DNA from: Arion vulgaris
Taxonomy: Eukaryota > Mollusca > Gastropoda > Stylommatophora > Arionidae
Direction of reading: 5' to 3'
Assembly: GCA_020796225.1 (NCBI GenBank)
Contig: CM036754.1
Coordinates: forward strand, 14,337,867 to 14,401,866
DNA: 64,000 nt
The notes under the pieces were generated by a model. The model was not told the DNA's origin. It did no database searches and saw only the letters and a program-made list of their open reading frames with translations. This document shows positions 3,901 through 53,480 of this stretch, one piece after another. The position numbers were made by a program, and so were the translations under genes. Position 1 is the first letter of the stretch; each line of letters opens with the position of its first letter.

Positions 3901-6900
3901 AGCTGTCAACATCTTGTCTCTGCTGTCAACATCTACTGTCTGTCAACATCATGTCTCTACTGTCACCATCTTGTCTCTACTGTCAACATCTTGTCTCTAC
4001 TGTCAACATCTTGTCTCTACCCTCACCATCTACTGTCTGTCAACATCTACTGTCTGTCAACATCATGTCTCTGCTGTCAACATCTTGTCTCTACCCTCAC
4101 CATTTACTGTCTGTCAACATCTACTATCTGTCAACATCTTGTCTCTGCCGTCAACATCTACTGTCTGTCAACATCTTGTCTCTACCCTCACCATCTACTG
4201 TCTGTCAACATCATGTCTCTGCTGTCAACATCTACTGTCTGTCAACATCTACTGTCTGTCAACATCATGTCTCTGCTGTCAACATCTTGTCTCTGCTGTC
4301 AACATCTACTGTCTGTCAACATCATGTCTCTGCTGTCAACATCTTGTCTCTACTGTCAACATCTACTGTCTGTCAACATCTTGTCTCTACCGTCAACATC
4401 TACTGTCTCTACTGTCAACATCTACTGTCTGTCAACATCTTATCTCTGCTGTCAACATCTTGTCTCTGCTGTCAACATCTACTGTCTGTCAACATCATGT
4501 CTCTGCTGTCAACATCTTGTCTCTAATGTCAACATCTACTGTCTGTCAACATCTTGTCTCTGCCGTCAACATCTACTGTCTGTCAACATCTTGTCTCTGC
4601 TGTCAACATCTTGTCTCTACCCTCACCATCTACTGTCTGTCAACATCTACTGTCTGTCAACATCATGTCTCTGCTGTCAACATCTTGTCTCTACCCTCAC
4701 CATCTACTGTCTGTCAACATCTTGTCTCTACCCTCACCATCTACTGTCTGTCAACATCTTGTCTCTACCCTCACCATCTACTGTCTGTCATCATCTACTG
4801 TCTCTGCTGCCAACATCTTGTCTCTACCCTCACCATCTACTGTCTGTCAACATCTTGTCTCTGCCGTCAACATCTACTGTCTGTCAACATCATGTCTCTG
4901 CTGTCAACATCTTGTCTCTACCCTCACCATCTACTGTCTGTCAACATCTTGTCTCTACCCTCACCATCTACTGTCTGTCAATATCTTGTCTCTACCCTCA
5001 CCATCTACTGTCTGTCAACATCTACTGTCTCTGCTGCCAACATCTTGTCTCTACCCTCACCATCTACTGTCTGTCAACATCTTGTCTCTACCCTCACCAT
5101 CTACTGTCTGTCAACATCTTGTCTCTACCCTCACCATCTACTGTCTGTCAACATCTACTGTCTGTCAACATCATGTCTCTGCTGTCAACATCTTGTCTCT
5201 ACCCTCACCATCTACTGTCTGTCAACATCTACTGTCTGTCAACATCATGTCTCTGCTGCCAACATCTTGTCTCTGCCCTCGCCATCTACTGTCTGTCAAC
5301 ATCTACTGTCTGTCAACATCATGTCTCTACCCTCACCATCTACTGTCTGTCAACATCTTGTCTCTACCCTCACCATCTACTGTCTGTCAACATCTACTGT
5401 CTGTCAACATCTACTGTCTGTCAACATCATGTCTCTGCTGTCAACATCTTGTCTCTACCCTCACCATCTACTGTCTGTCAACATCTACTGTCTGTCAACA
5501 TCATGTCTCTGCTGTCAACATCTTGTCTCTACCCTCACCATCTACTGTCTGTCAACATCTACTGTCTGTCAACATCATGTCTCTGCTGTCAACATCTTGT
5601 CTCTGCCCTCACCATCTACTGTCTGTCAACATCTACTGTCTGTCAACATCATGTCTCTGCTGTCAACATCTTCTGTCAACATCTTCTGTCAACATCTTGT
5701 CTCTGCTGTCAACATCTTGTCTCTGCTGTCAACATCTTCTGTCTGTCAACATCTACTGTCTGTCAACATCATGTCTCTGCTGTTAACATCTTCTGTCAAC
5801 ATCTTCTGTCAACATCTTGTCTCTGCTGTCGACATCTTGTCTGCCAACTGTCAGCAACTGTCAACATATATGACAATGATTGTATACATGTGTGGATGTG
5901 TCTGTTGAACAATGTACATAGCAGGATCTCATTTGCTCTTGATTCGTTATTAAACTTTTGCCCTATTTCAGATCTGGAATGTTTGGAGCATGTTTTATTC
6001 CTGACATGTGTAAGACTGATGATGCTAAACTTTATACTGCTCGACCTGGCTGTCGTCTATGGCTCTCTGATGTCAAGGGTGTCGTTTTAAATACTCATAT
6101 CTTCTCTGAGCCTCTGTCGTCGGCTGTCCCAGAGATTATGCTTCTCTCAGCAGGAAGATTACAAGTTGGCCAACCAGAGTTTCAGTTTGGAGTCTTGAAA
6201 TGTTTCCGTGGCAGAGAGATTGTTACATGGTCTAGTTGTGCGTTAGTGGTGCTGGACCCAGAGTCTAACAGAGTGGTTGCTCGTCAGAGTCGACTGAGTG
6301 GAATTGTAGATGTTGCTGTTGTTGATGATACTGGAGAGATCTTCTTATTGCGCAGACATGCTGAGGCTAGGGTTGTTAGAATTGCTGCCACATCAGAGTT
6401 GAAAGTTGTCAAAGGTATGTCAATTTACTTAACAAATCTTGCTCGTTATTCTCAATGTTCTTACTGTACGGTCATGTCTAAGTGGTTGCTACTGTATGGT
6501 GATGTTGTCATGTCTAGATAGTTGCTACTGTATGGTGATGTTGTCATGTCTAGGTAGTTGCTACTGTATGACGATGTTGTCATGTCTAGGTAGTTGCTAC
6601 TGTATGGCGATGTTGTCATGTCTAGGTAGTTGCTACTGTATGGCGATGTTGTCATGTCTAGGTAGTTGCTACTGTATGGCGATGTTGTCATGTCTAGGTA
6701 GTTGCTACTGTATGGCGATGTTGTCATGTCTAGGTAGTTGCTACTGTATGACGATGTTGTCATGTCTAGGTAGTTGCTACTGTATGGTGATGCTGTCATG
6801 TCTAGGTAATTGTTGCTGTATGGTGATGTTGTCATGTCTAGGTAGTTGCTACTGTATGGCGATGTTGTCATGTCTAGGTAGTTGCTACTGTATGGCGATG

Positions 6901-9900
6901 TTGTCATGTCTAGGTAGTTGCTACTGTATGGCGATGTTGTCATGTCTAGGTAGTTGCTACTGTATGACGATGTTGTCATGTCTAGGTAGTTGCTACTGTA
7001 TGGTGATGCTGTCATGTCTAGGTAATTGTTGCTGTATGGTGATGTTGTCATGTCTAGGTAGTTGCTACTGTATGGTGATGTTGTCATGTCTAGGTAGTTG
7101 CTACTGTATGGCGATGTTGTCATGTCTAGGTAGTTGCTACTGTATGGCGATGTTGTCATGTCTAGGTAGTTGCTACTGTATGGCGATGTTGTCATGTCTA
7201 GGTAGTTGCTACTGTATGGTGATGCTGTCATGTCTAGGTAATTGTTGCTGTATGGTGATGTTGTCATGTCTAGGTAGTTGCTACTGTATGGTGATGTTGT
7301 CATGTCTAGGTAGTTGCTACTGTATGGCGATGTTGTCATGTCTAGGTAGTTGCTACTGTATGGTGATGTTGTCAGGTCTAGGTAATTGTTGCTACTGTAT
7401 GGTGATGTTGTCATGTCTAGGTAGTTGCTACTGTATGGTGATGTTGTCAGGTCTAGGTAATTGTTGCTACTGTATGGTGATGTTGTCATGTCTAGGTAGT
7501 TGCTACTGTATGGTGATGTTGTCATGTCTAGGTAGTTGCTATTGTATGGTGATGTTGTCATGTCTAGGTAGTTGCTACTGTATGGCGATGTTGTCATGTC
7601 TAGGTAGTTGCTACTGTATGGTGATGCTGTCATGTCTAGGTAATTGTTGCTGTATGGTGATGTTGTCATGTCTAGGTAGTTGCTACTGTATGGTGATGTT
7701 GTCATGTCTAGGTAGTTGCTACTGTATGGTGATGTTGTCATGTCTAGGTAATTGTTGCTGTATGGTGATGTTGTCATGTCTAGGTAGTTGCTACTGTATG
7801 GTGATGTTGTCATGTCTAGGTAGTTGCTACTGTATGGTGATGTTGTCATGTCTAGGTAATTGTTGCTGTATGGTGATGTTGTCATGTCTAGGTGGTTGCT
7901 ACTGTATGGCGATGTTGTCATGTCTAGGTAATTGTTGCTGTATGGTGATGTTGTCATGTCTAGGTAGTTGCTACTGTATGGTGATGTTGTCATGTCTAGG
8001 TAGTTGCTACTGTATGGTGATGTTGTCATGTCTAGGTAATTGTTGCTGTATGGTGATGTTGTCATGTCTAGGTAGTTGCTACTGTATGGTGATGTTGTCA
8101 TGTCTAGGTAGTTGCTACTGTATGGTGATGTTGTCATGTCTAGGTAATTGTTGCTGTATGGTGATGTTGTCATGTCTAGGTAGTTGTCTCAACATTATGT
8201 TAGATACGATTCAAGTTCCTTTTCAATTGCTAGCAACTAGTCTGTCTGTTAATCAAGTGTCAACATCTGTTCTCTCCTAATATTTAGTCTGTCAATTGTC
8301 AATACTTTGTTATTCTGATGTCTGTCGACATCTGCTGTCAACATCTGACTTTCTTGCAAACAGTGCCCCAACTCAAGCGGGCAGAAGCATGGGCAGAGCC
8401 GATGTCATCAATGCAATAAGCTCTCATTTATGTGATAGGGGTTAGTCTCAGACACTGGAACGAGTGCGAGAATTAGGAGTTAAGTTTGGACATGATAAAC
8501 AGTGTTGTCTTCCTATTAGAGAGAGAAGATGTACTATCAACTTCTCATGGGTACGGTGAGCAAATAGACGTTAGAATAGTTGCTGCAGCGGAGGACAGAG
8601 CACAAATGGAAATGCCCAATGTGCCATGACGTCGATTACATAACATAACATCTTGACTGTCTGCTGTCAGCATCTGTCAACATATGTGATAATAATTGTA
8701 CAGGTGTGTGTGTCTGTTGAACAATGTACATAGCAGAATCTCAGTCTAATCTTCTTGTTGTTGTCTTTTAGCTCAAGTGTTGCCAGTCTTACCTCCAGTA
8801 GTAGCAGCAGTAGCAGACAAACCAGAGCAGAAGGATGAGAAAGAGAAAGAAAGTACAGCTCAGTTTTTGTTTAAGAAGTTTACAAATCCATTGAAACATT
8901 TGGAAAAGTCTATTAGAAGTGATAACAAACAGGAACCAGACCTACCTGCAACTGTCAGGTAAGGGCAGCTAACTTAAAGAGGGCTGCATTTATTATACAA
9001 CTATCTCACTTGAGTGGTTACCGTAGCCCAAATTGGGGTGTAAAGAATAGAACCACTGTTACCTGCCACGCATGTCATAAGAGGCGACTAAGGAGGTTGG
9101 GCGTGGAGTTAGCTACCCCACACCGTAAAAACACTACATGGCTACAGCAAGATTTCAGACATCAATCTACCTGTGTATGTTTGTTAACTGCCAGTAATTG
9201 TTGTATAATATGATGATTGTAAGAAAGATTTCAGACATCAATTTACCTGTGTATGTTTGTTAACTGCCAGTAATTGCTGTATAATATGATGATTGTAAGA
9301 AAGATTGCAGAAATCAATCTACCTGTGTATGTTTGTTAACTGCCAGTAATTGTTGTATAATATGATGATTGTAAGAAAGATTGCAGAAATCAATCTACCT
9401 GTGTATGTTTGTTAACTGCCAGTAATTGCTGTATAATATGATTGTAAGAAAGATTGCAGACATTAATTTACATGGTTTTTTTTTTGTTACCTGCCAGTAA
9501 TTGCTGTATAATATGATGTTTGTAAAAAAAATTTCAGACATCAATTTACCTGTGTATGTTTCAGAAACAACACAATCACCTCCCCAGATTTGCCTCCTGT
9601 AGTGAGACTATCATCACCTGAACTAGAAGGTGTAAGGATGTTCACAGGTACAACCATTGACACTGATGCCAACATGGATATAGCTTTAATAGTTGTACCT
9701 GACAAGGAGTCAACACCTGGACTACCTGTACTACCTGTACTGATGTCTGCCAGCTCATCTGATGTTGTAGCAGCCAGTGCTACTACCAGTCCATATGTGC
9801 TTGTGTCCAGCCCGGCAATGTCCTTGTGTCCAGGTTTGTCATTTCTAGTGTAGGTTGTTCTTTTCTTTTTCATATTTACTTGTCATTCTTCCGTCAATCA

Positions 9901-15900: not shown

Positions 15901-18900
15901 TATCTGCTGCACAACCTTTAGTACCTGACTCAAACCGCAGTATCCCATCTGAGGCAACGCCGCGCAGCACTGAGATGCAGGATGTTGCTGAACGAAGGCT
16001 AGCCAACACATGGTCTGAGTTCATGGCTCCTGCCAACATCTACAGCCTTGCCCTGTCCAACAACCAGATTTGGTTCACTGATAAAAGTGAGAACATTTAT
16101 TACTCATCTGTGGCAAACTCAAAAGGTATTCAGTGGCGGAAAGCATCTGGTCATGCCAATCAGATTTCTGTCTCTCCATCTGGACACATTGTCTGGCGTC
16201 TACATCGAGGGGTTGTATATGCTGGCACCAAGATAAGTGTTCGACATCCAGAAGGTCTCAAGTGGGTGGAGGCTGTACGAGATGTGGCCATAATTTCTGC
16301 AGACAATGATTGTGCCTGGTAAGCTAGTTATTCTTTTAAGCCAGTCTCATTAACACTCACTGTTACCAACTGTCACCACAGAATGTATGTATGTAAGCAA
16401 ACACTTAATATATATATTTGTATACTGAGAAATTGATCAAATTCTACAATAAAATTAAGCATGTCAGAGAGAGAGACCTACATATGATCCCGTCATAATT
16501 CTTGTAAATAAACCCAATCTTCTCATACTGTCAATGCTTATGTGTGTATCGAGCTACAGCAAACAGAGCTACCAATAACAATGTCACATGATTCCGCTGT
16601 TCTCTCATTGTTTGTTTGTTTAAGTTATGTAGAATATCTTCCTGGTAACATTGTCAACAGATAATAATAAAACTATCAACTGTAATCATGAGAAACATGT
16701 TGGCTGCCATATACTACACTACTCAACTATTCCATTACTGTTCCTCTCACTTCTCCTTGCTCAGGAAAATTTGCTAGTTGTTATATATATAACGGACTTG
16801 ACTTACTTATTCCTCTCCGCTCCTCGTGGAACATAAGGCCTCAAAAGTTGTTTGCCACTTTTCACGGTCTCTGGCTGTTTTTTTTTTTTTATGGCCTCCC
16901 AGGATAGTCAAGCAGCCTTCATTTACTCAAGAAATCTTCATCTCCACGTCTGTTTAGAACGTTCTGTTTTCCTTGTGAGTTACATTCAAGTGTTTGTCTA
17001 GTGACAATCGAATATGTCTACCGCAGCGTAAACCCAACCCATCGCCATTTTCTCATCTTAACCCGGATCATCACAGGTTCCTGTCCTGTTCTTATCCATA
17101 GGTCTCTGTTTGCAGCTCTGTCATACCATCTCAGTTTTAGAATTTGCTGAAGGCATCTGTTGACAAAGGTCTGAATCTTATTTGTATTTAACTTGGAAAT
17201 TGGTATATATGTATATATGGTTTTACCCAACATAGTATTAGAAGCAAGATTAAAATATATACCGCAGCTGTGTGCTATCAACTTTACTATACCAGAGAAT
17301 GCTGGAGAATACTAATGCTGGAGAATAATAGAACAAAATATGTCAAAACTCTCCACCATCCATAAAACTTGACTGCGAAAGATCTTACGAGTGTTCAGGC
17401 CAAGAGCTATCTCTAACCGAGAACTGCTTACACAGTGTTAGCAGGAGAATATGAACACTATCATCCAAAAGAGATGCCGGAGATGATCGGGTATGTGATA
17501 TGCATGCCGACTAACTCTGTCATGAAAACTACACTGAGTTGGACACCAGAGGGTAAACAAAAACATGGGAGACCCAAAATGACCTGGAGGAGAATAGTAG
17601 AACAAGAACCGAAAGAAATTAATCACAGCGGGAACACAGTACAGAGGATGGCTAAGAACATAGAAGAACAGCATGCATTTATTGTTGCCCTAAGCGCCAA
17701 GGACATCACAGACTAGTGAGAGAGAGAGAGAGAGAGAGATATATATATATTGGTTGTAATAGTACTTTACACATACTTGTTCGATTTCTTATTACAAAGA
17801 TAATCTCTAAGTAGATCATCTGTATATGTGCGTGTATGTAAGTGTGTGTTTTCTATGAAAGTTATACCCATACTGTCCAGGTTTCTTATGTACAAAGATA
17901 ATCTCTAAGTAGATCATCTGTATATGTGCGTGTATGTAAGTGTGTGTTTTCTATGAAAGTTATACCCATACTGTCCAGGTTTCTTATGTACAAAGATAAT
18001 CTCTAAGTAGATCATCTGTATATGTGCGTGTATGTAAGTGTGTGTTTTCTATGAAAGTTATACCCATACTGTCCAGGTTTCTTATGTACAAAGATAATCT
18101 CTAAGTAGATCATCTGTATATGTGCGTGTATGTAAGTGTGTGTTTTCTATGAAAGTTATACCCATACTGTCCAGATTTCTTATGTACAAAGATAATCTCT
18201 AAGTAGATCATCTGTATATGTGCGTGTATGTAAGTGTGTGTTTTCTATGAAAGTTATACCCATACTGTCCAGATTTCTTATGTACAAAGATAATCTCTAA
18301 GTAGATCATCTGTATATGTGCGTGTATGTAAGTGTGTGTTTTCTATGAAAGTTATACCCATACTGTCCAGATTTCTTATGTACAAAGATAATCTCTAAGT
18401 AGATCATCTGTATATGTGCGTGTATGTAAGTGTGTGTTTTCTATGAAAGTTATACCCATACTGTCCAGATTTCTTATGTACAAAGATAATCTCTAAGTAG
18501 ATCATGCATGTGTGTGTGTGTGTGGTTTTCCTCAAAGCTATACACATATGGTCCAGGTTTGTGATGTAAAATGAGGATGTCATGATGCAGATAAGGTTGT
18601 CCCTAGAGAGACCTTGCTACAAGTCTTAAGTAGATCATGTATGTGATGTAAAATGAGGATGTCATGATGCAGATAAGGTTGTCCCTAGAGAGACCTTGCT
18701 ACAAGTCTTAAGTAGATCATGTATGTGATGTAAAATGAGGATGTCATGATGCAGATAAGGTTGTCCCTAGAGAGACCTTGCTACAAGTCTTAAGTAGATC
18801 ATGTATGTGATGATGAAATGAGGATGTCATGATGCAGATAAGGTTGTCCCTAGAGAGACCTTGCTACAAGTCTTAAGTAGATCATGTATGTGATGTAAAA

Positions 18901-21900
18901 TGGGGATGTCATGATGCAGATAAGGTTGTCCCTAGAGAGACCTTGCTACAAGTCTTAAGTAGATCATGTATGTGATGTAAAATGAGGATGTCATGATGCA
19001 GATAAGGTTGTCCCTAGAGAGACCTTGCTACAAGTCTTAAGTAGATCATGTATGTGATGTAAAATGGGGATGTCATGATGCAGATAAGGTTGTCCCTAGA
19101 GAGACCTTGCTACAAGTCTTAAGTAGATCATGTATGTGATGTAAAATGAGGATGTCATGATGCAGATAAGGTTGTCCCTAGAGAGACCTTGCTACAAGTC
19201 TTAAGTAGATCATGTATGTGATGTAAAATGGGGATGTCATGATGCAGAGAAGGTTGTCCCTAGAGAGGCCATGCTACAAGTCTAAGTAGATCATGTGTGT
19301 ATGTATGTGTATGTATGTGGTTTCTCTGAAAGTTATATCCATACTGTCCAGGTTTGTGATGTACAATGGTGATGTCATGATGCAGAGAAGATTGTCCCTA
19401 GAGAGGCCATGCTACAAGTCCCAAAAGGTGGAATGTCACTACAAAGTCAAACACATCATTGCACGGTATGGCATTGTCTGGGCCATCACAGACAATCTGG
19501 CATTGCTAGTCAGGACAGGTGTGTCTAATGAGTTACCTGAAGGAAGTGGCTGGGAACAGGATACCAGGTAAGAATGTAGGAGCACACCTGTATAGAATGA
19601 ATGATGACTGATGGGACATTTTGTTTGTAGGTGAGTAGTTTCAAGTTTTTTTGGGTACTCTATGGGTTCGATTCCTGGTCTCTTGACTCTTCACAGTAAC
19701 GAGAGCTGGAGTCTTTTCATATGAGATATCTTATTCATGGCCTATCATGAAATGACAGTGTAACCAATAAACAAGTACTTGAGAGAGCAGATATTCCCAC
19801 CATGTACACTCTCCTCCTCAAGCAGAGATGTTTTCAGTAGCTGGGACACATCTGACACATGGAAGTTAGTCAATTTTTTAAGGATCTCTTTTATAGAGAG
19901 CTGATCTCTGGGAAGAGATGGACTGGGAGACTACAAATGTGATACAGTGTTCAAGATAAATATAACCCGGTCAAGGAAACCAATATGGCATATGTTTATG
20001 AAAATGAGAAGGTTCAGTTATGGAGTAGTGTAGGTCAAGTGAGCCTTTTTGTGATGGTGTAATTATGGTGCAGGAAGGGGCGATGAACCAATGTGATGTA
20101 GGACAAGCTAGTCAGAACCGGTTTAAGTAGTAAATAGATGTAACACAATGAGTACCAGACAACTTTTGATTTGTCAATGGGGATGCTTTTATCTTGAACA
20201 CCCTGTATAAAGATGTCTAGTAAAACCAAGATTTGATAGATCCTGACATAAACACATGGGGGAAACAAGCCCCAACAATCTGGAGAAATGAGGTGTGGAG
20301 TGAACTTTGACATTTTTAGCACAGTCTGATCAAACAAACAGAGGAAACAAGGTTTTACTCCAGGATGTACTGTCACCTTGAGAAACCTGCCTTATTATTT
20401 TATTATGCCCGCCTGCCCAGCGTGTCCGTAGTGCGTTGGACGACGGGTGACAAGCCCCCTTGTGAGTGCGGTTCAAGTCCGCGCTCTGGCAGAAAAGCCA
20501 CAGGTTCTCCAGATTTATGGTGTTCGTGGCACCGAACTGAAGGGTTACGATGTCCATGGCATCGAGCCAAAGAGCTAAAAGCTCAAGTGCTTCTGAATTG
20601 GGAAAACAAACCCATTATTTTATGAGAAATGTAACATTGACTGTCATTCCCTTATTGGACACAACATTAACTACAAAATACCTATTCATCGGCAGCACAG
20701 ATTTCTGATCCCTCAGAGCTGATAAGAGTTATACTATCTACATACATCCAACACTACTATATCACAATGAGTCCTTGGACAATAAACAATATATGGAAGA
20801 ACAACAGTATGGAGATGTAGTTTTACAGAAGAATATGAAGAATCTCATGGGCTATTGAAAGGAGTAATGTAGACTTTACTAAGAGAGGGAGAGTGACATC
20901 AGTGACAAAAAATGAATCTTGTGACCAAAACATCTGAAGAAAATGTATTGGTTGTCTTTTGATTAATGTAATAGAAAGACATGGGTTCAAACATAATAAA
21001 ACAATTGCTGGGATGAGAAAAATAGAAGAATGATGGAGAGAGACAGGGAAGATAATGAGCAGTCTAACAGCATGGCAGGGGACATTGTCAACAACTGAGT
21101 TGATCATCAATGCTAGGGGACAGAAAGCTGTGGAGATTTATGATTGTGAATGCCAGCAGATGTAATGATGATGATGTTGTAATGACAATGATGTATGATG
21201 ATGTTATTGTGATGACAATGATGATCTAATGATGATCTTCTTGGCGTTTGGTTTCGTATGCTCGTTTAAACCATGACATGGGTTGCCTCTATAAAGCTGC
21301 ATGTAAGTTGGAGTTCCTCGAGAGTTCCCCATAGCTTGCTCTTAAGCTTTGTTCATGAGGTTATGTTTCGTTTCGTTGGTGTACGTATGACGGACAGGAC
21401 TGCATGGATGTGCTCTGGGGTCTGTATTTCAGCCTGACATGCACACTGTGCAGTCTGAGCAGGCTTTATTCTTTGCATGTGATGGTTGAGCCTACAGTGA
21501 CCTGTTGTGATGATGATAATGTTGTAATGATGATGATGTTGTTGGTATTGTTGTTGTGCTAGTGTTTTGAAGTTGATAATGTTGTATACTGACAAGTTTA
21601 AGTTGGTGATTTCTCTAACAGGGAGGTACCACCATATTTGTTTTCTTATGTTGGGCTGGACAATGAAAACATTGGATGGGCTATTGATGTGCTTGGACAA
21701 ATCTGGTTCTGTGATGGAGTGACTAGAGAACAACCTTTCGGCAGGAGACTTTGGTGGCAGGTAGGTGACTTAGATGGGTTAGTCTTGTGTGGTTTCACTC
21801 TAGACCTTGTCTAGTTGCATGGGTTAGTCTTTTGTTGGCTTGTTGTAAACATTTTGTGTGTCTATAGCCTGGAGGTAACGTGCTTGTCTTTCATGCCAAT

Positions 21901-24900
21901 AGTATGTGAAGCCATCACAATATTTTTCCAGAGATACCTGATCTCAATGTAGATGAGATGGAGTTCTTAATCGTATCCGAGAATGGATAGTAAAATCTAG
22001 GTCTTGTGTTCACAAGTTGAGCATATGAAAAAACTCTTGGCAGAGAAACCTGGCAGTTGAAACTCGATAAGCAGTAAGCTACAAAATTGCTGCTCGGGCG
22101 AAATTACAAAAATTAAAATAAACATTCTTTGAAGTTTTTGCCATCTTTAAAATGACACCGGGACCATTACCAGTGATATGGAGTTTATGCACGCTGCCAC
22201 TGAGATCTTCCTGTGTAAGAAAGAGATTGGAGCACACATAGTTATTCACCAAAGTGCAATGCTGATGGTGCAATCAATCAATCTTCTTCTTCTTCTGCGA
22301 TCAACTTTTGCTATTTCGACTACTCCGGTATGTGTCATAAACAGGGCGGTGCGCTTGAGGTCTTCACCGGTTCCCCATAGTTTCATAGTTTGTCTTGTAG
22401 TGTTGTTTCTGTTGGCCAGATTTCCAATCTCTCACTACTCAGACTAGGGCAGTCTTGCAGGATGTGCTCTGGGGACTGCTTTGGTGCTCCACAGGTGCAG
22501 GCTGCCGAGTCCCTGAGACCCATTCTGGGGAGGTGTGCTCTGAGACTGCAGTGTCCCGTTCTAAGTCTGAAGACTGTGGTCTGTTCTTTTGTGTTGAGTG
22601 TATTTATACTGTCATGCTCTGGGTTGTATCCTCCATTTGTTCTTCTCCAGATCATTTTCCTGGATTGTTTCAGGAGAGTCTTTGCTTCTGTAAAACTTTG
22701 TGTTGGGTGGTGTTGTCAATACAGAAATGCAGTGTGTGACTAGCAAGAAATCTTGACTATCATTTATTTACCTATATCATACAAGTCTAACCACCACAAC
22801 AAGAAATGATCACTTTGAACCCAGTCTTGGCTGATTCAGTGATGACACTCTGTTGATAGGACAATGACTTGTGACCACAGAATTCTGTCAACCCTTCCCC
22901 CATCCTCCCCAAATCCTTCCCCATTGCAGTAGAATAGTATTAAACTGAAGTGACCCAGGCCATGCTAGATAGCAAACAGACAACACACTACTTAAGACTA
23001 GACTATTGTTGTTCTTGTCGCCTGTATGGTGCTAGGGCTCAAGGAAGCAAAGAATAGTACCACTGCGACTACAAGACATGTAGTAAGAGGTCACTGATGT
23101 AGGACCCAAGGAAACTACCCTAGTAAATAAAAAAGCATCGCAGAAATCGGATATAATGGCCTACTTGTAGGTGCATAACTGGCACAAAATACATTCGCTC
23201 TTAGGTTCAGATCACATACAAATCACACAGAGTAGTTGATATGAAGTGTTTGAAGAAGTTGTTCTTGTTTTTCTAATCTAATAAGACTATCAATATTGTA
23301 TGATTGAATGTTGTTTGTTTCTGATGCTAGACTTGCTTGATTGAATGTTGTTTGTTTCTGATGCTAGACTTGCTTGATTGAATGTTGTTTGTTTCTGATG
23401 CTAGACTTGCTTGATTGAATGTTGTTTGTTTCTGATGCTAGACTTGCTTGATTGAATGTTGTTTGTTTCTGATGCTAGACTTGCTTGATTGAATGTTGTT
23501 TGTTTCTGATGCTAGACTTGCTCTTAAAGTAGAACTTTTCTATTGAATATCTTGTTCATGTCCAGGTACCTCTCAGCGAGTACATCATGTAATATCTTGT
23601 TCATGTCCAGGTACCTCTCAGTGAGTACATCATGTAATATCTTGTTCATGTCCAGGTATCTCTCAGTGAGTACATCATGTAATATCTTGTTCATGTCCAG
23701 GTACCTCTCAGTGAGTACATCATGTAATATCTTGTTCATGTCCAGGTATCTCTCAGTGAGTACATCATGTAATATCTTGTTCATGTCCAGGTACCTCTCA
23801 GTGAGTACATCATGTAATATCTTGTTCATGTCCAGGTATCTCTCAGTGAGTACACCATGTAATATCTTGTTCATGTCCAGGTACCTCTCGCAGTACATCA
23901 TATAATATCTTGTTCATGTCCAGGTACCTCTCAGCGAGTACATCATGTAATATCTTGTTCATGTCCAGGTACCTCTCAGCGAGTACATCATGTAATATCT
24001 TGTTCATGTCCAGGTACCTCTCAGCGAGTACATCATATAATATCTTGTTCATGTCCAGGTACCTCTCAGCGAGTACATCATGTAATATCTTGTTCATGTC
24101 CAGGTATCTCTCAGCGAGTACATCATGTAATATCTTGTTCATGTCCAGGTATCTCTCAGCGAGTACATCATATAATATCTTGTTCATGTCCAGGTACCTC
24201 TCAGCGAGTACATCATGTAATATCTTGTTCATGTCCAGGTATCTCTCAGCGAGTACATCATATAATATCTTGTTCATGTCCAGGTACCTCTCAGTGAGTA
24301 CATCATGTAATATCTTGTTCATGTCCAGGTATCTCTCAGTGAGTACATCATGTAATATCTTGTTCATGTCCAGGTATCTCTCAGTGAGTACATCATATAA
24401 TATCTTGTTCATGTCCAGGTACCTCTCAGTGAGTACATCATGTAATATCTTGTTCATGTCCAGGTATCTCTCAGTGAGTACATCATATAATATCTTGTTC
24501 ATGTCCAGGTATCTCTGAGCGAGTACATCATATAATATCTTGTTCATGTCCAGGTATCTCTCAGCGAGTACATCATGTAATATCTTGTTCATGTCCTGGT
24601 ACCTCTCAGTGAGTACATCATGTAATATCTTGTTCATGTCCAGGTACCTCTCAGCGAGTACATCATGTAATATCTTGTTCATGTCCAGGTACCTCTCAGT
24701 GAGTACATCATGTAATATCTTGTTCATGTCCAGGTACCTCTCAGTGAGTACATCATATAATATCTTGTTCATGTCCAGGTACCTCTCAGCGAGTACATCA
24801 TATAATATCTTGTTCATGTCCAGGTGCCTCTCAGCAAGTACATCATATAATATCTTGTTCATGTCCAGGTACCTCTCAGCGAGTACATCATATAATATCT

Positions 24901-27900
24901 TGTTCATGTCCAGGTACCTCTCAGCGAGTACATCATGTAATATCTTGTTCATGTCCAGGTACCTCTCAGCGAGTACATCATGTAATATCTTATTCATATC
25001 CAGGTGCCTCTCAGCGAGTACATCATATAATATCTTGTTCATGTCCAGGTATCTCTCAGCGAGTACATCATGTAATATCTTGTTCATGTCCAGGTACCTC
25101 TCAGCGAGTACATCATATAATATCTTGTTCATGTCCAGGTGCCTCTCAGCAAGTACATCATATAATATCTTGTTCATGTCCAGGTACCTCTCAGCGAGTA
25201 CATCATATAATATCTTGTTCATGTCCAGGTACCTCTCAGCGAGTACATCATGTAATATCTTGTTCATGTCCAGGTACCTCTCAGCGAGTACATCATGTAA
25301 TATCTTATTCATATCCAGGTGCCTCTCAGCGAGTACATCATATAATATCTTGTTCATGTCCAGGTATCTCTCAGCGAGTACATCATGTAATATCTTGTTC
25401 ATGTCCAGGTACCTCTCAGTGAGTACATCATGTAATATCTTGTTCATGTCCAGGTACCTCTCAGCGAGTACATCATGTAATATCTTGTTCATGTCCAGGT
25501 ACCTCTCAGCGAGTACATCATGTAATATCTTGTTCATGTCCAGGTACCTCTCAGCGAGTACATCATATAATATCTTGTTCATGTCCAGGTACCTCTCAGC
25601 GAGTACATCATGTAATATCTTGTTCATGTCCAGGTACCTCTCAGCGAGTACATCATGTAATATCTTGTTCATGTCCTGGTACCTCTCAGTGAGTAGGTCA
25701 TATAATATCTTGTTCATGTCCAGGTACCTCTCAGCGAGTACATCATGTAATATCTTGTTCATGTCCAGGTACCTCTCAGCAAGTACATCATATAATATCT
25801 TGTTCATGTCCAGGTACCTCTCAGCGAGTACATCATGTAATATCTTGTTCATGTCCAGGTACCTCTCAGTGAGTACATCATATAATATCTTGTTCATGTC
25901 CAGGTACCTCTCAGCGAGTACATCATATAATATCTTGTTCATGTCCAGGTACCTCTCAGCGAGTACATCATGTAATATCTTGTTCATGTCCAGGTACCTC
26001 TCAGCAAGTACATCATATAATATCTTGTTCATGTCCAGGTACCTCTCAGCGAGTACATCATGTAATATCTTGTTCATGTCCAGGTACCTCTCAGCGAGTA
26101 CATCATGTAATATCTTGTTCATGTCCAGGTACCTCTCAGCGAGTACATCATGTAATATCTTGTTCATGTCCAGGTACCTCTCAGCGAGTACATCATGTAA
26201 TATCTTGTTCATGTCCTGGTACCTCTCAGTGAGTAGGTCATATAATATCTTGTTCATGTCCAGGTACCTCTCAGCGAGTACATCATGTAATATCTTGTTC
26301 ATGTCCAGGTACCTCTCAGCGAGTACATCATGCATGATGTAACTACTCTAGACATCATCAGAGGACTTGCTCGAAAGTTTGATCCTACAAAGTTGTCTTC
26401 TATTTTAAGTACTAACAAAGGAGGATTGATTGTGGCTGGATCTCAGGGTGTATGGCTGGCTATAGACTTCCGGAATGTGTTACAGGTGTGTCGAGGAAAT
26501 GTCCAAGGTAAGCAGGAGTTAGTTAGTTTAGTGTTTATCACAATTCATGTTATGATTATCTCAGTTTGTTACAATTTGTTCTACTCTAGGCAGACATAAT
26601 TTTGTTGTAGTTTTTCTTATCCTGCTTTGTCTCACTGCATCTGGGTAAGAAGAGATTTTTGGAACAGGCTCTTTAGGCACTTCATACATGATGTCATTTA
26701 TTGCCTCTCTTATTTCTATGGTCCACCTTTTGCACCATCATTCATTTGCCTTGTATCCACTGTATCTGAATAACATTGCCCTTTGGAGCCCACTGTCTGC
26801 TGGCAATCTGCTTATGGGGCCAAACTATTTAAGTTGTTGTTTCTTGATAAAGTTCAGTACTGATGTTGTACCCACTTTTTCCTGATGTCTTCATTTCTAA
26901 ACCGATCTATTCATGATACTGCCAGCATTCTGTGTAGACACTTCATCTCTGCCGTGACTAGTTTTTTCTATCATTTGATATCAGCTTCCAGGTTTGGCAC
27001 TGATAGCATGTGGGAAGAAAGATTGTGTTGTATAATGCTCTTGTAGTATTCATGGTGACATGTTTACATTTCAAAACTGGCACCATAAGTCCTACGATTT
27101 GATTTGCTTTATTGTATCTATGTTGGATCTATTCTATCTATATCCTCTTCGTGTTCCGATTGACACATAAGACTTCCACAAGACTTCCACTGTTGCCGTT
27201 CTGCTGCCTGTCTACAAACCGTCTTCCACGTCAGGCCACACTCCTTCAACTCTCTCTCCACCGTTCTTCTCCATGTTTCATTTGGACGTCCAGGCCTTCT
27301 CTTCTCATCTGCTGTCCATCTGAGAGCTGTATCTATGTTGGATATTGTTAGTTATTCCTCCATTTGCTGAGAAAATTTTCTCTAGGTATATGTAAAGTCT
27401 TGTAGTAGAAGCAGAAATAATGTTCTTATTTAAACAGAGGTAATTTTGTATTTTTGCTGTTGTTGTGTTTGCAGAGATATTTGCTATTATTGTTTACTTC
27501 ATGTGGGGCTTCTAAAGATGTTTAGTAATTTTGTCTCTGTGATTGTGTGTGTACTGCATGTTAGAGATCATGTAATGTGTGTCATTCAAGTTGGTTATGT
27601 ATATGTGTGCTATAGAGACTGTGTTCATGCTGTGTACTTCTTCTTTAAATGCTCCATATCGACCACTTGTCAACCACTCTGTGTGATTTGTATGTGATCT
27701 GAGCCTAAGAGCGATTGTACGTTGTGCCAGTTATGCACCTGCTAGTAGACCAGCACATCCAGCATTTCTGCGCTGCTTTTTTATTTACTAGGGTAGCATC
27801 CCTAGGACCTACATCAGTCGGCGCTACGATATGCATTGTAGGTCGCAGTGGTACTATTCTTTGCTTCCTATGCGGGCCCCGGCACCACATGGGCGATGCC

Positions 27901-30900
27901 GGGTACAATAAAGACAAACTCAGTTCATCAACTGTAAGCTTCTCTCATTGAAGAACTTAGCATGGTCAAGAATGAATGCTAAAACTCTTCATATAATCAC
28001 TAGTTTCAATGTGGAAACAGTTAAAACACATCTTGCAAATCTGTGCTATCTTCAATGACTTCATGCCTTAAGCATGACACTGTAATATAGTTTTACTGCA
28101 GTCTTCTCTTTTCTTGATAAACATGGCACTGGGAGATTAAATCGAAGGAAAACACTTGTGGACCACCAGCGATAATCTCTTGCTTGTCTGAGCGGTTACC
28201 GGGGCCCAAATTTGGGGTGTAAAGAATAGAATCACTGTTGACAGCCACGTATGTCGTAAGAGGCGAGTAAGGAGGTTTGGCTGAAATTGGATACATGTGT
28301 CCTAAGCGTGTAGGAGTCTATGCGTTTAGGGCTTACCAAACCAATGTGCAACGTATACACGTTCTTGGCAAAGATCAAACATATCACAAAGAGTGATTAA
28401 AATTTGTCATAAAGAACGAACGCGAAGATCTCCTGTTAACAAATGGATTCATGAAGTCAACTCATCTGTCTCTTTCTCTCTCTCTTTCTCTTTGTTGAAA
28501 TAATTAACATAGTTTATGTAAGTTTATTGACTACTAATTGAAAGACTAATGATAGAGGAATAGATTTGGTGTGTCCTGGTCATATCTACAAGAGATGAAA
28601 GATAATGTGTTCGGTCTTGTTACTAGGTTACCACTGGCTGGAGGCACAACCTGCTCAGATGTCACCGTCGTCATCATGGAAGCAAGTCTGTGCTAACATG
28701 TCATATCTTGACTGGGGTAAAGTATATTGTCATTCTCACATGTTTTGTGTGTATACATGTGTCAGTGTGTCATGTTTGTGTACACAGTTGTCAGTCAGTG
28801 TATCATGTTTATGTTTTCTCATTGCCAGGTCTAATCTGGGCTCAACATGTGTCAGTGTGTCATGTTTGTATACACAGTTGTCAGTTAGTGTGTCATGTTT
28901 GTATACACAGTTATCAGTCAGTGTGTCATGTTTATGTTTTCTCTTTGCCAGGTCTAATCTGGGCTCAACATGCTAATGGGGATGTCTTTACATTCAAGCA
29001 CGCTAGATCTGAGGCTACTGTTGTTCCAAACTGCAATGACCTGTGCTGTATCTCAGTCGGTCCTACAGCTACCTGGGCATTGAGCAGTAGTGGGGCTATT
29101 TTTGTGAGGGAGGGCATGGGGCCACAGTATCCACGAGGAACTGGCTGGGTGGAACTGGACATTTCACAACTAGGTGAGGCACATACACACATACATATAT
29201 CTTTGCTGATGTTAATGTCATTTATCCCATTTTTTGTCATATGTTTATTTCTGTTGACATCACCTTCTCTGTACATTTCCTAGTGTTGACAACTAATTGG
29301 TTCGACGTGCAGTGATGATGATCCGACGACTAAACTAAACTAGTGTTGACATCAATTTTCTCTGTACATATCCTAGTGTTGACATCAATTTTCTCTGTGC
29401 ATATTCTAGTGTTGACATCAATTTTCTCTGTACATATCCTAGTGTTGACATCAATTTTCTCTGTACATATCCTAGTGTTGACATCAATTTTCTCTGTGCA
29501 TATTCTAGTGTTGACATCAATTTTCTCTGTGCATATTCTAGTGTTGACATCACCTTCTCTGTGCCTATCCTAATGTTGACATCACCTTCTCTATACATTT
29601 CCTAGTGTTCACATCACTTTCTCTGTACTAAAACATGTTTTTATTCCTATATGTTTGTAATGTCTAGGTGATGCTCATCTAGTTTACATCAGTTGCAACT
29701 CACTATACGTCTGGGCAGTTGAAGCAGAAGGTACTGTCTACCAAAGAATTGGAGCCAAGCCTCCCTCGGAGAACAACTTGAGTCCTGCATGGCTGGCCAT
29801 TGATACATTTGCTGTTGTCGTGTTTACAAAAGTGCACACTGGACCACTCGACTGGATGGTAGGTGTGACAAAATCTACCACATGTCACTTATAGGCTTAC
29901 ACTCTTACTTGACACTTATTCTTGTATCACATGACTGATGTGTTGTTGTCCTTGTATCACATTGTTGATGTAGTACTTTCCTGTTATCTATTTTGTGTTG
30001 AAACATTCTGATCAGAAAGCAAATCATAGCAATAATAACACATCATCATAGACATGTGTTGTGTTGCTAATACTCTTCTATCTGAACATGTTTGCAGGTG
30101 TGGGCCATTGACAACTGCAGGCTGCCCTATGCTAGAATTGGCATCACAGAGAACATGCCCATTGGTCAAGAGTGGGTGAATGTGCCAGGTATTAGAGTCT
30201 GTTTATGATTAGTCTCATGCCCAACTTGATCATATCACTACAATCTATGTTAATATCATTTCTATTGCTCTTTCTCACAGCATCTTTCTGGTTTTTTTGT
30301 TTCTCTATGTGTGTGTCTGTGTTTTTCTTTTTGTATGTTTATCTGTACCACTATATCACTGTACTGCTATACCCTTCCTTAAAACATCAAAATAGAAAGG
30401 CAGTAAAATTCCCAAGTGCAAGTATACCTTACCCACACTATACAAGAACATTTCAAGCCCGCATCGGGCTCACTAGTCATCTACGCACACACAGACAAAC
30501 ATAACGCAACTACATGTCCTTGGATGAAAATTGTGTGGTCATCATCACCTGTGGTGGACGAGCATCATCATCCTTTCCCTTTCTGTCTGTTTTCTGTATC
30601 TCAAATTCTGCATGTTTATTCAAGAATAACCAGTTACTAACCACTGTCTGTGATCTAAGACAATGAGTGTAGTAATTTCATATTATGCTATTAGTTGACA
30701 ATCAAGATCTGAGACAATGAGTGTAGTAACTTTATATTATGCTATTAGTTGACAATCAAGATCTCAGACAATGAGTGTAGTAACTTTATATTATACTATT
30801 AGTTGACAATCAAGATCTGAGACAATGAGTGTAGTAACTTCATATTATGCTGCTAGTTGACAATCAAGATCTGAGACAATGAGTGTAGTAACTTTATATT

Positions 30901-33900
30901 ATGCTGCTAGTTGACAATCAAGATCTGAGACAATGAGTGTAGTAGTAACTTTATATTATGCTACTAGTTGACAATCAAGATCTGAGACAATGAGTGTAGT
31001 AACTTTATATTATGCTACTAGTTGACAAGATCTCAGACAATGAGTGTAGTAACTTTATATTATGCTACTAGTTGACAATCAAGATCTGAGACAATGAGTG
31101 TAGTAGTAACTTTATATTATGCTACTAGTTGACAATCAAGATCTGAGACAATGAGTGTAGTAGTAACTTTATATTATGCTACTAGTTGACAATCAAGATC
31201 TGAGACAATGAGTGTAGTAACTTTATATTATGCTACTAGTTGACAATCAAGATCTGAGACAATGAGTGTAGTAGTAACTTTATATTATGCTGCTAGTTGA
31301 CAATCAAGATCTGAGACAATGAGTGTAGTAACTTTATATTATACTATTAGTTGACAATCAAGATCTCAGACAGTGAGTGTAGTAACTTTATATTATACTA
31401 TTAGTTGACAATCAAGATCTGAGACAATGAGTGTAGTAACTTTATATTATACTATTAGTTGACAATCAAGATGTAATACTTCTCTCTTTCATACCAGAGT
31501 ATATATTTACTCATGGAAAGTTCTCTGTCACAGAAACTTCTAGCAACTCTTGCTTGCTGGGTGTTTCCCCATGATTAATTTGCTTGGCTACCTCTTCTGT
31601 CAGGATTTGTTGGAGTAGAGTACTGACTTATATTGTAGCTAACATGTCCTACTTGAAGGTAGTTCACTATCTACCACCAGTTATTGACTTGCTCAGCTAC
31701 CTCTTCTGTCATGATTTCTTGCTGATCTCAGTGTAGGTGAGATCAAGTTCTAGTCTTATCGGAGATGTGCGACAAAACGTAGGTGCAGTGTTCAAGTTGA
31801 GCATTTAAAAGAACCGTTGGCAGTTCAAAATCGAGTCAAGCAGCTGTAAAACCACTGCCCAGGCAAAATTAATTTGAAAGCTTTAAAAAGTAAAGCTCCT
31901 ACAAAAATATTTTCACCATCTTCTAAATTATATAGGGACCTGCGGCTACAGAGTTCATGCACTGCCGCTGAGATCTTCCTGTGTAAGAAAGAGATTGGAG
32001 CACACATGGTTGGTTACTCACTGAAGTGCAATGATGATGGTCCTATCAATCAATTTTAATTAAATGTGTTAACATTGACAATAGACTGTTGCCATGTGTC
32101 AGATCTGTTAACATTGACAATAGACTGTTGCCATGTGTCAGATCTGTTAACATTGACAATAGACTGTTGCCATGTGTCAGATCTGTTAACATTGACAATA
32201 GACTGTTGCCTTGTGTCAGATCTGTTAACATTGACAATAGACTGTTACCTTGTGTCAGATCTGTTAACATTGACAATAGACTGTTGCCATGTGTCAGATC
32301 TGTTAACATTGACAATAGACTGTTGCCTTGAGTCAGATCTGTTAACATTGACAATAGACTGTTGCCATGTGTCAGATCTGTTAACATTGACAATAGACTG
32401 TTGCCTTGTGTCAGATCTGTTAACACTGACAATAGACTGTTGCCATGTGTCAGATCTGTTAATATTGACAATAGACTGTTGCCATGTGTCAGATCTGTTA
32501 ACACTGACAATAGACTGTTGCCATGTGTCAGATCTGTTAATATTGACAATAGACTGTTGCCTTGTGTCAGATCTGTTAACACTGACAATAGACTGTTGCC
32601 ATGTGTCAGATCTGTTAATATTGACAATAGACTGTTGCCATGTGTCAGAGGCTGTACACAGCATACATGACACAATCTCAGCACTCTTGCTTCTTGCAGG
32701 TATACAAGCAATGGACCTGGCACTAACAAGTACAGGTGTTTGGGCTCTCACACCCAATGGTGAGATCTTCTTCCGCTATGGCATCACTAGAGATAGACCC
32801 TGTGGTAACTACTGGAAGAAAATACCTGGCATTTTTATGAAGATATCAGGTATGTATCTTATGGAATGTCATAGTAATGGCAAAATACATACAAACAAAG
32901 TACTGTAGTTTTACAAAGTACAAAAATAATATTGAACATCGGGCATATCCTTTACAGGACGTAGCCATCAACCACAGTAAACAAGTCGTTGATTTTCTAG
33001 GCACCACTTATACATTCAGTAGTTTGCCATTGCTTTCTGAAGGTGAGGTCTATTTTTACCTTACGTAAAAATCCTACAGAAACGAATGTGCTTCCAAACT
33101 TGCCCACCGTGTGGTTTGAACCAGGTGCGCTTGGGTTTGTGATCGAGCTCACTACCGCTTGAGCTACAGACGCTCACAATAACAACATACAGCTACATTT
33201 GAACTAAAATGCCTTTATCAAACAAAGTATACAACCGAAGTGAAGAAATTCAGACTTCTTATACAGCAAATATAACATATACAATTTATCACCCTTTTCC
33301 TGCTGACTATTGACTGGATAATGAGATCAACAACAGCCAGGGGGAGAAATGGATTATAGTGGACCATGCTGAGTCAATTTGAAGATTTAGATTTTGCAGA
33401 TGATCTAGCACTCCTCTCTCACAGCCATCAACGGATGCAAGAGAAAACAACTAATCTGAAAACAATCTCACAACAACTGGGTCTGACTATTCATGGGGAA
33501 AAACAAAGATAATGAGATTAAATGCTAATTCCAGAGACCCAATCATATTGAGAGGAGCACCATTAAAGGAGGTGGACACATTTATATATCTGTGAAGTGT
33601 TATCAACATTCAAGGTGGCACCGATGAAGATTTTAGAGTTATAATACAAAAGGCAAGATCAGCATTTGCCATTCTGAAGAACATATGGAGTTCAAGAATG
33701 ATCAGGAATAAAACTAAGATAATGATATTTAACTCAAATGTCAAGGATGTCCTTCTATATGGAGCGGAGGCATGGAGAACAACTAAGGGGAACACCAAAA
33801 AGTTGCAGACATTCATCAATAGATACCTGTCCAGGATACTCCATCTGCGATGGTATGACAGGACAACAAATAGGGAACTGTGGGATAGAGCGTGACAATG

Positions 33901-40019: not shown

Positions 40020-43000
40020 TAGAAAAGTATGGCCGATAATATGAAAAGCTTGACTAGTAAAAAGAAAAGTATGGCCGATAATATGAAAAGCTTGACTAGT
40101 AAAAAGAAAAGTATGGCCGATAATATGAAAAGCTTGACTAGTAAAAAGAAAAGTATGGCGATAAATAGAAAAGCTTGACTAGTAAAAAGAAAGTATGCCA
40201 TTATGAAAACTTGACTAGTAAAAAAGAAAAGTATGGCCGATAATATGAAAAGCTTGACTAGTAAAAAGAAAAGTATGGCATAATATGAAAAGCTTGACTA
40301 GTAAAAGAAAAGTATGGATAATATGAAAAGCTTGACTAGTAAAAAGAAAAGTATGGCCGATAATATGAAAAGCTTGACTAGTAAAAAGAAAAGTATGGCC
40401 GATAATATGAAAAGCTTGACTAGTAAAAAGAAAAGTATGGCCGATAATATGAAAAGCTTGACTAGTAAAAAAGAAAAGTATGGCCGATAATATGAAAGCT
40501 TGACTAGTAAAAAAGAAAAGTATGGCCGATAATATGAAAGCTTGACTAGTAAAAAGAAAAGTATGGCCGATAATATGAAAAGCTTGACTAGTAAAAAGAA
40601 AAGTATGGCGATAATATGAAAAGCTTGACTAGTAAAAAAAAAGTATGGCCGATAATATGAAAAGCTTGACTAGTAAAAAAGAAAAGTATGGCCGATAATA
40701 TGAAAGGCTTGACTAGTAAAAAGAAAAGTATGGCGATAATATGAAAAGCTTGACTAGTAAAAAGAAAAGTATGGCCGATAATATGAAAAGCTTGACTAGT
40801 AAAAAGAAAAGTATGGCCGATAATATGAAAAGCTTGACTAGTAAAAAGAAAAGTATGGCCGATAATATGAAAAGCTTGACTAGTAAAAAAGAAAAGTATG
40901 GCCGATAATATGAAAAGCTTGACTAGTAAAAAAAGAAAAGTATGGCCGATAATATGAAAAGCTTGACTAGTAAAAAGAAAAGTATGCCGATAATATGAAA
41001 AGCTTGACTAGTAAAAAGAAAAGTATGGCCGATAATATGAAAAGCTTGACTAGTAAAAAGAAAAGTATGGCCGATAATATGAAAAGCTTGACTAGTAAAA
41101 AGAAAAGTATGGCCGATAATATGAAAAGCTTGACTAGTAAAAAGAAAAGTATGGCCGATAATATGAAAAGCTTGACTAGTAAAAAGAAAAGTATGGCCGA
41201 TAATATGAAAAGCTTGACTAGTAAAAAAAGAAAAGTATGGCCGATAATATGAAAAGCTTGACTAGTAAAAAGAAAAGTATGGCCGATAATATGAAAAGCT
41301 TGACTAGTAAAAAAGAAAAGTATGGCCGATAATATGACTGCTAGTAAAAGAAAGTATCGATAATATGAAACATAGTAAAGAAAGTATGGCCGATAATATG
41401 AAAAGCTTGACTAGTAAAAAGAAAAGTATGGCCGATAATATGAAAAGCTTGACTAGTAAAAAGAAAAGTATGGCCGATAATATGAAAAGCTTGACTAGTA
41501 AAAAAGAAAAGTATGGCCGATAATATGAAAGCTTGACTAGTAAAAAGAAAAGTATGGCCGATAATATGAAAAGCTTGACTAGTAAAAAGAAAAGTATGGC
41601 CGATAATATGAAAAGCTTGACTAGTAAAAAGAAAAGTATGGCCGATAATATGAAAAGCTTGACTAGTAAAAAAGAAAAGTATGGCCGATAATATGAAAGC
41701 TTGACTAGTAAAAAGAAAAGTATGGCCGATAATATGAAAAGCTTGACTAGTAAAAAGAAAAGTATGGCGATAATATGAAAAGCTTGACTAGTAAAAAGAA
41801 AAGTATGGCCGATAATATGAAAAGCTTGACTAGTAAAAAAGAAAAGTATGGCCGATAATATGAAAGCTTGACTAGTAAAAAAAAGTATGGCCGATAATAT
41901 GAAAAGCTTGACTAGTAAAAAAGAAAAGTATGGCCGATAATATGAAAGCTTGACTAGTAAAAAGAAAAGTATGGCCGATAATATGAAAAGCTTGACTAGT
42001 AAAAAGAAAAGTATGGCCGATAATATGAAAAGCTTGACTAGTAAAAAAAAAGTATGGCCGATAATATGAAAAGCTTGACTAGTAAAAAAGAAAAGTATGG
42101 CCGATAATATGAAAGCTTGACTAGTAAAAAGAAAAGTATGGCCGATAATATGAAAAGCTTGACTAGTAAAAAAGAAAAGTATGGCCGATAATATGAAAAG
42201 CTTGACTAGTAAAAAGAAAAGTATGGCCGATAATATGAAAAGCTTGACTAGTAAAAAGAAAAGTATGGCCGATAATATGAAAAGCTTGACTAGTAAAAAG
42301 AAAAGTATGGCCGATAATATGAAAAGCTTGACTAGTAAAAAGAAAAGTATGGCCGATAATATGAAAAGCTTGACTAGTAAAAAGAAAAGTATGGCCGATA
42401 ATATGAAAAGCTTGACTAGTAAAAAAGAAAAGTATGGCCGATAATATGAAAGGCTTGACTAGTAAAAAGAAAAGTATGGCCGATAATATGAAAAGCTTGA
42501 CTAGTAAAAAGAAAAGTATGGCCGATAATATGAAAAGCTTGACTAGTAAAAAGAAAAGTATGGCCGATAATATGAAAAGCTTGACTAGTAAAAAGAAAAG
42601 TATGGCCGATAATATGAAAAGCTTGACTAGTAAAAAGAAAAGTATGGCCGATAATATGAAAAGCTTGACTAGTAAAAAGAAAAGTATGGCCGATAATATG
42701 AAAAGCTTGACTAGTAAAAAAGAAAAGTATGGCCGATAATATGAAAAGCTTGACTAGTAAAAAAGAAAAGTATGGCCGATAATATGAAAGCTTGACTAGT
42801 AAAAAAGAAAAGTATGGCCGATAATATGAAAGCTTGACTAGTAAAAAGAAAAGTATGGCCGATAATATGAAAAGCTTGACTAGTAAAAAGAAAAGTATGG
42901 CCGATAATATGAAAAGCTTGACTAGTAAAAAGAAAAGTATGGCCGATAATATGAAAAGCTTGACTAGTAAAAAGAAAAGTATGGCCGATAATATGAAAAG

Positions 43001-46000: not shown

Positions 46001-46489
46001 AGAAAAGTATGGCCGATAATATGAAAAGCTTGACTAGTAAAATAGAAAAGTATGGCCGATAATATGAAAAGTATGGCCGATAATATGAAAAGTATGGCCG
46101 ATAATATGAAAAGCTTGACTAGTAAAATAGAAAAGTATGGCCGATAATATGAAAAGTATGGCCGATAATATGAAAAGTATGGCCGATAATATGAAAAGCT
46201 TGACTAGTAAAAAAGAAAAGTATGGCCGATAATATGAAGGCTTGACTAGTAAAAAAGAAAAGTATGGCCGATAATATGAAAAGTATGGCCGATAATATGA
46301 AAAGCTTGACTAGTAAAAAAGAAAAGTATGGCCGATAATATGAAAAGTATGGCCGATAATATGAAAAGCTTGACTAGTAAAAAAGAAAAGTATGGCCGAT
46401 AATATGAAAAGTATGGCCGATAATATGAAAAGTATGGCCGATAATATGAAAAGTATGGCCGATAATATGAAAAGCTTGACTAGTAAAAA
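40020..46489. repeat. 42-bp satellite-like array, about 6.5 kb, roughly 150 units
   Basis: Unit is two 21-mers: AAAAGTATGGCCGATAATATG and AAAAGCTTGACTAGTAAAAAG (each written to 20-21 bases), containing HindIII and SpeI sites. A-run length varies by one or two bases, so frames open and close repeatedly. From 46040 to 46480 the first 21-mer is repeated two to four times between single copies of the second. Confidence 0.97.
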
Positions 46490-53078: not shown

Positions 53079-53480
53079 GCAAAACTGCGACCTACAAGGC
53101 GACTGTGGTAGGGACCTAGGGAAGCTACGCTAGTAATTAAAAAGCGTAGCAGAAATTGGATATGCTGGCCTACTTGTAGGCGTATAACTGGCACAACGTA
53201 CGATCGCTCTGTCTCAGATCACATACAAATCACAAAGATTGGTTAACAAGTGGTCAATATGGAGTGTTCAAAGAAGAAGATCTCAGCAGCAATGTGCGAA
53301 CTCCATGGAACCAGCGAGAGTACATGATATAATTTTGCAGATGGTAACAATTTTATGTTGCTCAGATAGCAACTTTTATGCCTACTCTTCTAGATTTTCA
53401 ATTGCCAAGAGTTCTTTTACGTGCTCAACTTGTGAATCTATCTACATACATGTATAATACATCTACTGAACATCTATTTC
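52590..53480 (-). mobile_element. SINE family C copy, duplicated tail and nested SINE B
   Basis: SINE C tail at 52590-52672 and again 52958-53040 (because of the 368-bp duplication); its body resumes at 53283-53480 (TTCTTTTACGTGCTCAACTT). Confidence 0.7.
53050..53279 (+). mobile_element. SINE family B inserted in SINE C
   Basis: GCCGGGCCTGCAAGGGAAGC head, GCCTACTTGTAGGCGTATAA body, tail TTCAAAGAAGAAG. Flanks ATCTCAACAGC / ATCTCAGCAGC resemble a target duplication. Confidence 0.75.

Follow-up and report, generated by a model that had tools for sequence, protein, structure and literature searches.

Several described systems come close to the array studied here. In intron 7 of the human factor VII gene (F7), variable 37-bp repeats carry donor sites of which normally only the exon-proximal one is used (PMC6627357). 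As at the locus described here, near-identical repeats start from an exon border and each contains a copy of the splice site, but in F7 the donor is repeated and its use is demonstrated, whereas here the acceptor is present 62 times and its use is predicted (PMC6627357). In a potato RdRp gene, a duplication across an acceptor resulted in two copies which are both spliced, with a new intron between them (PMC4974935). Its duplicated segment crosses the 3' boundary and copies the polypyrimidine tract, the AG and the exon start, as does the unit of our array; there are two copies there, in contrast to 62 copies and no known new intron here (PMC4974935).

Acceptor choice has mostly been studied with few competing sites. 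In the TECPR2-like gene analyzed in this study, up to 61 near-identical competitors with 45-nt spacing precede a constitutive-looking exon and are told apart from the real acceptor by context alone, and milder cases were found at two other exons.

Gene model and anatomy of the exon J array

The window, i.e. the whole stretch of 64,000 nt of DNA that was analyzed, contains the TECPR2-like gene, of which the following exons are relevant here (in sequence motifs, a slash marks the splice junction):

19352..19567, + strand, exon Hp of the TECPR2-like gene model
21622..21760, + strand, exon I, ends LWWQ, donor CAG/GTAGGT
26309..26507, + strand, exon J, 199 nt, begins GTACCTCTC (VPLSEYIM), donor AAG/GTAAGC
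28952..29173, + strand, exon K, preceded by an intron of 235 nt

Exons Hp, I, J, J2, K, L, L2, M and N (19352-35866) form one 487-codon open frame with consistent phases and a terminal stop. Exons J2 and L2 were added to the first model by comparison with human TECPR2; the upstream exons a to h were placed by eye and are provisional. The early joined protein, without exons J2 and L2, matched Pfam PF06462 (E 2.2e-30) and PF19193 (E 1.7e-27). Tectonin / Hyd_WA repeats are present in the C-terminal part of the protein, and the single distinct match among PDB sequences was tectonin 2. In an alignment to a human TECPR2 sequence, which is taken as a lead, 149 of 449 aligned residues were identical, with a local score of 592 compared to a best score of 57 in 100 shuffles. 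The human stretch WWQ/VSITDYVV aligns across the I/J junction without a gap. The open frame across nine exons, the Pfam matches and the gap-free human stretch support the placement of the exon J start, and with it the original prediction that the array unit represents the acceptor junction at exon J in a TECPR2-like gene.

Several other features of the window were recorded. Reverse-transcriptase-like fragments at 33360-33920 are presumably a LINE remnant. A 42-bp array of about 154 copies (40021-46453) lies between two genes, and a 368-bp segment occurs twice in tandem at 52343-53080 with 100% matches (TRF). The second gene, on the + strand at 53617-62070, encodes a proline-rich and RGG-rich protein; near 59700 two overlapping long frames disagree, and an intron or indel may be located there.

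The intron between exons I and J contains two tandem arrays:

23301..23522, + strand, array of a 37-bp unit in 6 copies, unit end TTTCTGATGCTAG
23545..26332, + strand, array of 62 units, each composed of 21 nt of intron end and 24 nt of exon J start

For the larger array, the TRF call (23546-26332, period 45, 62.0 copies, 95% matches) and our unit scans agreed. The 62 units are arranged head to tail, 61 of them with 45 bp and one, unit 8 starting at 23860, with 43 bp. The intron part of the unit is TAATATCTTGTTCATGTCCAG and the exon part GTAyCTCTCAGyGAGTACATCATr. The predicted array, its composition of 21 nt of intron end and 24 coding nt from the beginning of exon J, and its single 43-bp unit were all confirmed. 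The unit acceptors span 23566 to 26309, which agrees with the expected arithmetic (61 x 45 - 2 = 26309 - 23566), and only the last unit continues into exon J, as had been stated. The first unit begins with GAATATC, not with TAATATC as originally read.

Two further claims of the original prediction held in part. It had assumed 61 decoy acceptors of the same sequence; AG/GT is intact at constant spacing in 59 of the 62 units, and thus in 58 of the 61 decoys, while three units starting at 24578, 25658 and 26198 carry TCCTGG. It had also assumed that all decoys run straight into a stop. Reading from each acceptor, this applies to 58 of the 61 decoys, which stop after exactly 8 codons; two decoys (acceptors 25679 and 26219) stop after 5 codons, and in the 43-bp unit the frame from acceptor 23881 stays open for 138 codons. 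Since every one of the 61 decoys runs into a stop in the exon frame, the array was rejected as coding sequence.

Seventeen sequence types were distinguished among the units, and units 28-34 are exactly repeated as units 35-41. Apart from this 7-unit repeat, the mean difference between units was flat against lag, giving no higher-order period in the array. The unit types and the exact repeat show that the array has followed its own course. Allowing up to 4 mismatches, no 21-mer resembling the unit was found elsewhere in the window on either strand. The array is far beyond chance; its copy number, read from one haplotype, could be an assembly error. Among the 61 full-length units, 4 of 21 columns were variable in the intron part and 9 of 24 in the exon part (Fisher p 0.20), which is no sign of selection for or against the decoys. 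Selection maintaining or purging decoys was rejected for want of support.

A GGTACC palindrome spans most acceptors of the array at 23545-26332, and adjacent copies of AGGUACCU are able to pair. This pairing potential did not result in folds better than shuffles: three 135-nt segments gave z values of -0.85, -1.36 and -0.57. Masking of the decoys by RNA structure was rejected on the basis of these ordinary folds.

Duplicated exon starts and tandem arrays in the gene

The first 80 nt of each exon were compared with the preceding intron and the last 80 nt with the following intron. The TECPR2 set comprised 15 introns, the L-M intron being replaced by L-L2 and L2-M, and scores were judged against 60 Markov shuffles. 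Exon starts were found to be duplicated in 3 of the 18 modelled introns, corresponding to 3 of 15 in TECPR2. These were the starts of exon Hp (score 59, best shuffle 13.5), exon J (24, best shuffle 13.5) and exon K (21, best shuffle 10.5). None of the 15 TECPR2 introns contained a duplicated exon end. In the 3 introns of the second gene no exon start was duplicated, and one exon end gave a weak match (13.5, best shuffle 12.0). Only 1 of 39 control comparisons exceeded its own shuffles, namely that of the Hp start with the intron downstream of it (17.5, best shuffle 14.5); this match at 21207-21234 lies beside a GATGAT-rich repeat. The duplications at Hp and K comprise the following elements:

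17768..18505, + strand, 98-bp array of 7.5 copies, containing a copy of the Hp acceptor tail and about 25 nt of exon-like sequence
18506..19305, + strand, extra Hp acceptor copy CCAG/GTTTGTG (exon-like from 18558) leading into an 82-bp array of 9.1 copies
28812..28849, + strand, single decoy consisting of the exon K acceptor and the first 21 exon nt (21/21)

The 82-bp array is built from the Hp exon start, its best copy being identical to the first 69 nt of Hp at 65 of 69 positions. By eye, eight CCAG acceptor copies were counted upstream of exon Hp, seven in the 98-bp array and one at 18554-18557; the seven are followed by GT in three cases and by AT in four. At exon K, the acceptor together with the exon start occurs twice within 28812-28972, and the joint lies in a shared ACATG. 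The exon J array is thus not alone, with milder versions in the same gene at Hp and K.

Positions of tandem arrays relative to splice sites were derived from hand-picked TRF arrays with a minimum period of 25 and a minimum of 2.5 copies, after merging of overlapping rows and exclusion of arrays that were coding, intergenic or located beyond the last modelled exon of the second gene. In TECPR2, 7 of 18 intron arrays have their end no more than 60 nt from an acceptor (p 0.00025 against an expectation of 1.77, post hoc), and 1 of 18 has its start equally close to a donor (expectation 1.76). Leaving out the three exon-start arrays, 4 of 15 remained near an acceptor (1.32 expected, p 0.025, post hoc), and 2 of these 15 were within 20 nt (p 0.07). 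Of the 5 arrays of the second gene, 1 adjoins an acceptor and 2 adjoin a donor (p 0.029 for the donors) by the same 60-nt limit. Pooling both genes resulted in 8 of 23 near acceptors (p 0.00025) and 3 of 23 near donors (p 0.33), again post hoc. Arrays therefore adjoin acceptors more often than expected by chance in TECPR2 only, in a test made after the pattern had been noticed. A general avoidance of donors was rejected in view of the second gene, in which donor-proximal arrays outnumber acceptor-proximal ones. An acceptor-like motif shared by all intronic TECPR2 arrays was rejected as well, as no more than 2 of the 18 outscored shuffled units at the 0.05 level. The top-scoring acceptor lay on the + strand in 15 of 18 arrays (Wilcoxon p 0.011), a bias explained by T-rich sense strands.

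Individual arrays showed further details. The 36-bp array at 6471-8186 (47.5 copies), whose unit contains TCTAG/GTAGTT, starts 56 nt past the exon c donor. The last copy of the 76-bp array at 9149-9564 enters the exon e acceptor, and the array ends 3 nt before the exon. In the second gene, 26/35-bp arrays at 61676-61945 reach an exon start.

Acceptor choice at exon J

The array is probably a near-neutral minisatellite that arose by duplication across a 3' splice site and is tolerated by means of exon definition and NMD. In this scenario, the 3' splice junction of exon J would have been duplicated in tandem, so that an additional copy of intron end and exon start came to lie upstream of the genuine one. 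Further expansion to 62 copies may then have occurred by slippage or unequal exchange. The spliceosome would commit to the last acceptor, which is nearest to the strong exon J donor, by exon definition across 199 nt. Use of a decoy would lead to an in-frame stop in exon J with several introns downstream, and the product would be removed by NMD. Transcripts with a stop ahead of further introns are expected to be subject to this pathway.

Depending on the acceptor, exon J would have a length of 199 nt for the last site, 244, 289 and 334 nt for the next ones, and 2942 nt for the first. Exons of up to 300 nt would be formed by 2 of the 61 decoys and exons of up to 500 nt by 6; all decoys beyond the nearest two would need exons of 334 to 2942 nt. 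The exon J donor AAG/GTAAGC scored near the top of the intronic GTs on a small position weight matrix (PWM). The last site is presumably favored by exon definition because the flanking introns are long (I-J 4548 nt, J-J2 2119 nt) and this donor is strong. The F7 repeats, with their exon-proximal donor use, provide a mirror-image precedent (PMC6627357). According to PMC9225289, long flanking introns favor the splice-site pairs that are closest across the exon; the general bias towards upstream 3' splice sites becomes weaker under exon definition but does not flip. Since this bias is only weakened, use of the last site is not guaranteed. Some decoy use at exon J is likely, because the nearest decoy (acceptor 26264, exon of 244 nt) retains its AG and matches the real acceptor locally. 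The potato RdRp duplication, which led to use of both acceptors (PMC4974935), also speaks against the explanation set out above.

The original prediction offered the alternatives that the last acceptor is always chosen or that decoys yield truncated products. This was a fair framing, to which a third possible outcome can be added, namely that decoys are spliced to first and then removed in a second splicing step. In such a recursive or dual-specific ladder, joining of exon I to a decoy would recreate a CAG/GTAyCT donor, which would jump onward until exon J is reached. We regard this as possible in principle, not favored and on the whole unlikely. Exon I ends in TGGCAG, so that joining to a decoy would give CAG/GTATCT (13 of 61 full units) or CAG/GTACCT, and AG/GT is present in nearly all units (59 of 62). 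On the donor PWM, which is tiny as it is based on 14 donors of this gene and includes the exon L donor at an earlier placement, CAG/GTATCT scored 6.72 (top 1.9% of intronic GTs), within the range of 0.09 to 11.25 of the real donors left out in turn. In contrast, most units carry GTACCT with a score of 3.51, a value equaled by 10.3% of intronic GTs, and the alternative exonic donor CA/GTGAGT is poor (-0.79). The consensus of recursive ratchet donors is GTRAGT; no strong donor directly behind the acceptor was found in the array units, whose donor half lacks G at +5. Drosophila ratchet points share with our units the juxtaposition of acceptor and donor, (PMC8605326), but here the donor half, GTACCT or GTATCT, is weak. 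Processing of UBC via a tandem array of AGGT sites lends the ladder some plausibility (PMC10809524), and the potato RdRp gene likewise shows that sites of this type can be used (PMC4974935). The UBC array and ours both lie inside a gene and have AG/GT at a fixed interval; in UBC, however, the units encode protein, intron length is a multiple of unit length, and dual-specific use is demonstrated (PMC10809524). Our array is not coding in frame, has units with stops and sets no intron length, the 4548-nt intron I-J starting from an ordinary donor outside the array. Quite unlikely is the more far-reaching idea that a ladder of 59 steps removes the 2.7 kb in whole 45-nt units with no trace in the mRNA, and that 3' junctions (Hp, J, K) seed tandem duplications by which many full-strength acceptors could be gained without loss of the message.

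It also appears rather improbable that the array acts as a splicing attenuator, in which decoys compete, some transcripts end early and are degraded, and array length sets the output of the gene. Intact AG/GT and the stop after exactly 8 codons, each in 58 of 61 decoys, would fit this function. Furthermore, the exon J acceptor was the best of 15 on a PWM derived from the 14 other acceptors of the gene, and 3.0% of 1855 intronic AGs scored as well, which is about the array copy number. The uniform stop is not separate evidence for regulation, however, because one ancestral joint fixes it in nearly all copies, and a tidy 8-codon stop is absent from the duplications near exons Hp and K. The very occurrence of these junction duplications favors mutation and tolerance over a special attenuator at exon J, and most likely the array is tolerated rather than regulatory.

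A fault of the gene model or assembly, in which exon J is not joined to exon I, the gene is a pseudogene copy or the array length is an assembly product, is highly improbable: an assembler could make the exact 7-unit repeat, but the 487-codon frame across nine exons with consistent phases, the 17 unit types and the Pfam matches argue against it.

Comparison with described boundary repeats

As a putative near-neutral minisatellite, the array provides a natural test of splice-site choice among near-identical sites, setting exon definition against upstream preference. It also suggests that exon starts can be copied into introns unharmed, which may be an early step to new introns or alternative exon starts. 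Introns arising from tandem arrays are the subject of Zhuo et al. (2007). Among the matches listed in the open-licence literature, no natural acceptor-junction array of this size was found.

In duplicated human genes, minisatellites located at exon-intron boundaries are known that can alter splicing (PMC2812944). These internal repeats have units of about 30 bp, present 4 times on average, compared to 62 repeats of 45 bp at an acceptor junction here (PMC2812944). Our tandem array likewise overlaps an exon-intron boundary. It is a variant of the junction-spanning minisatellites.
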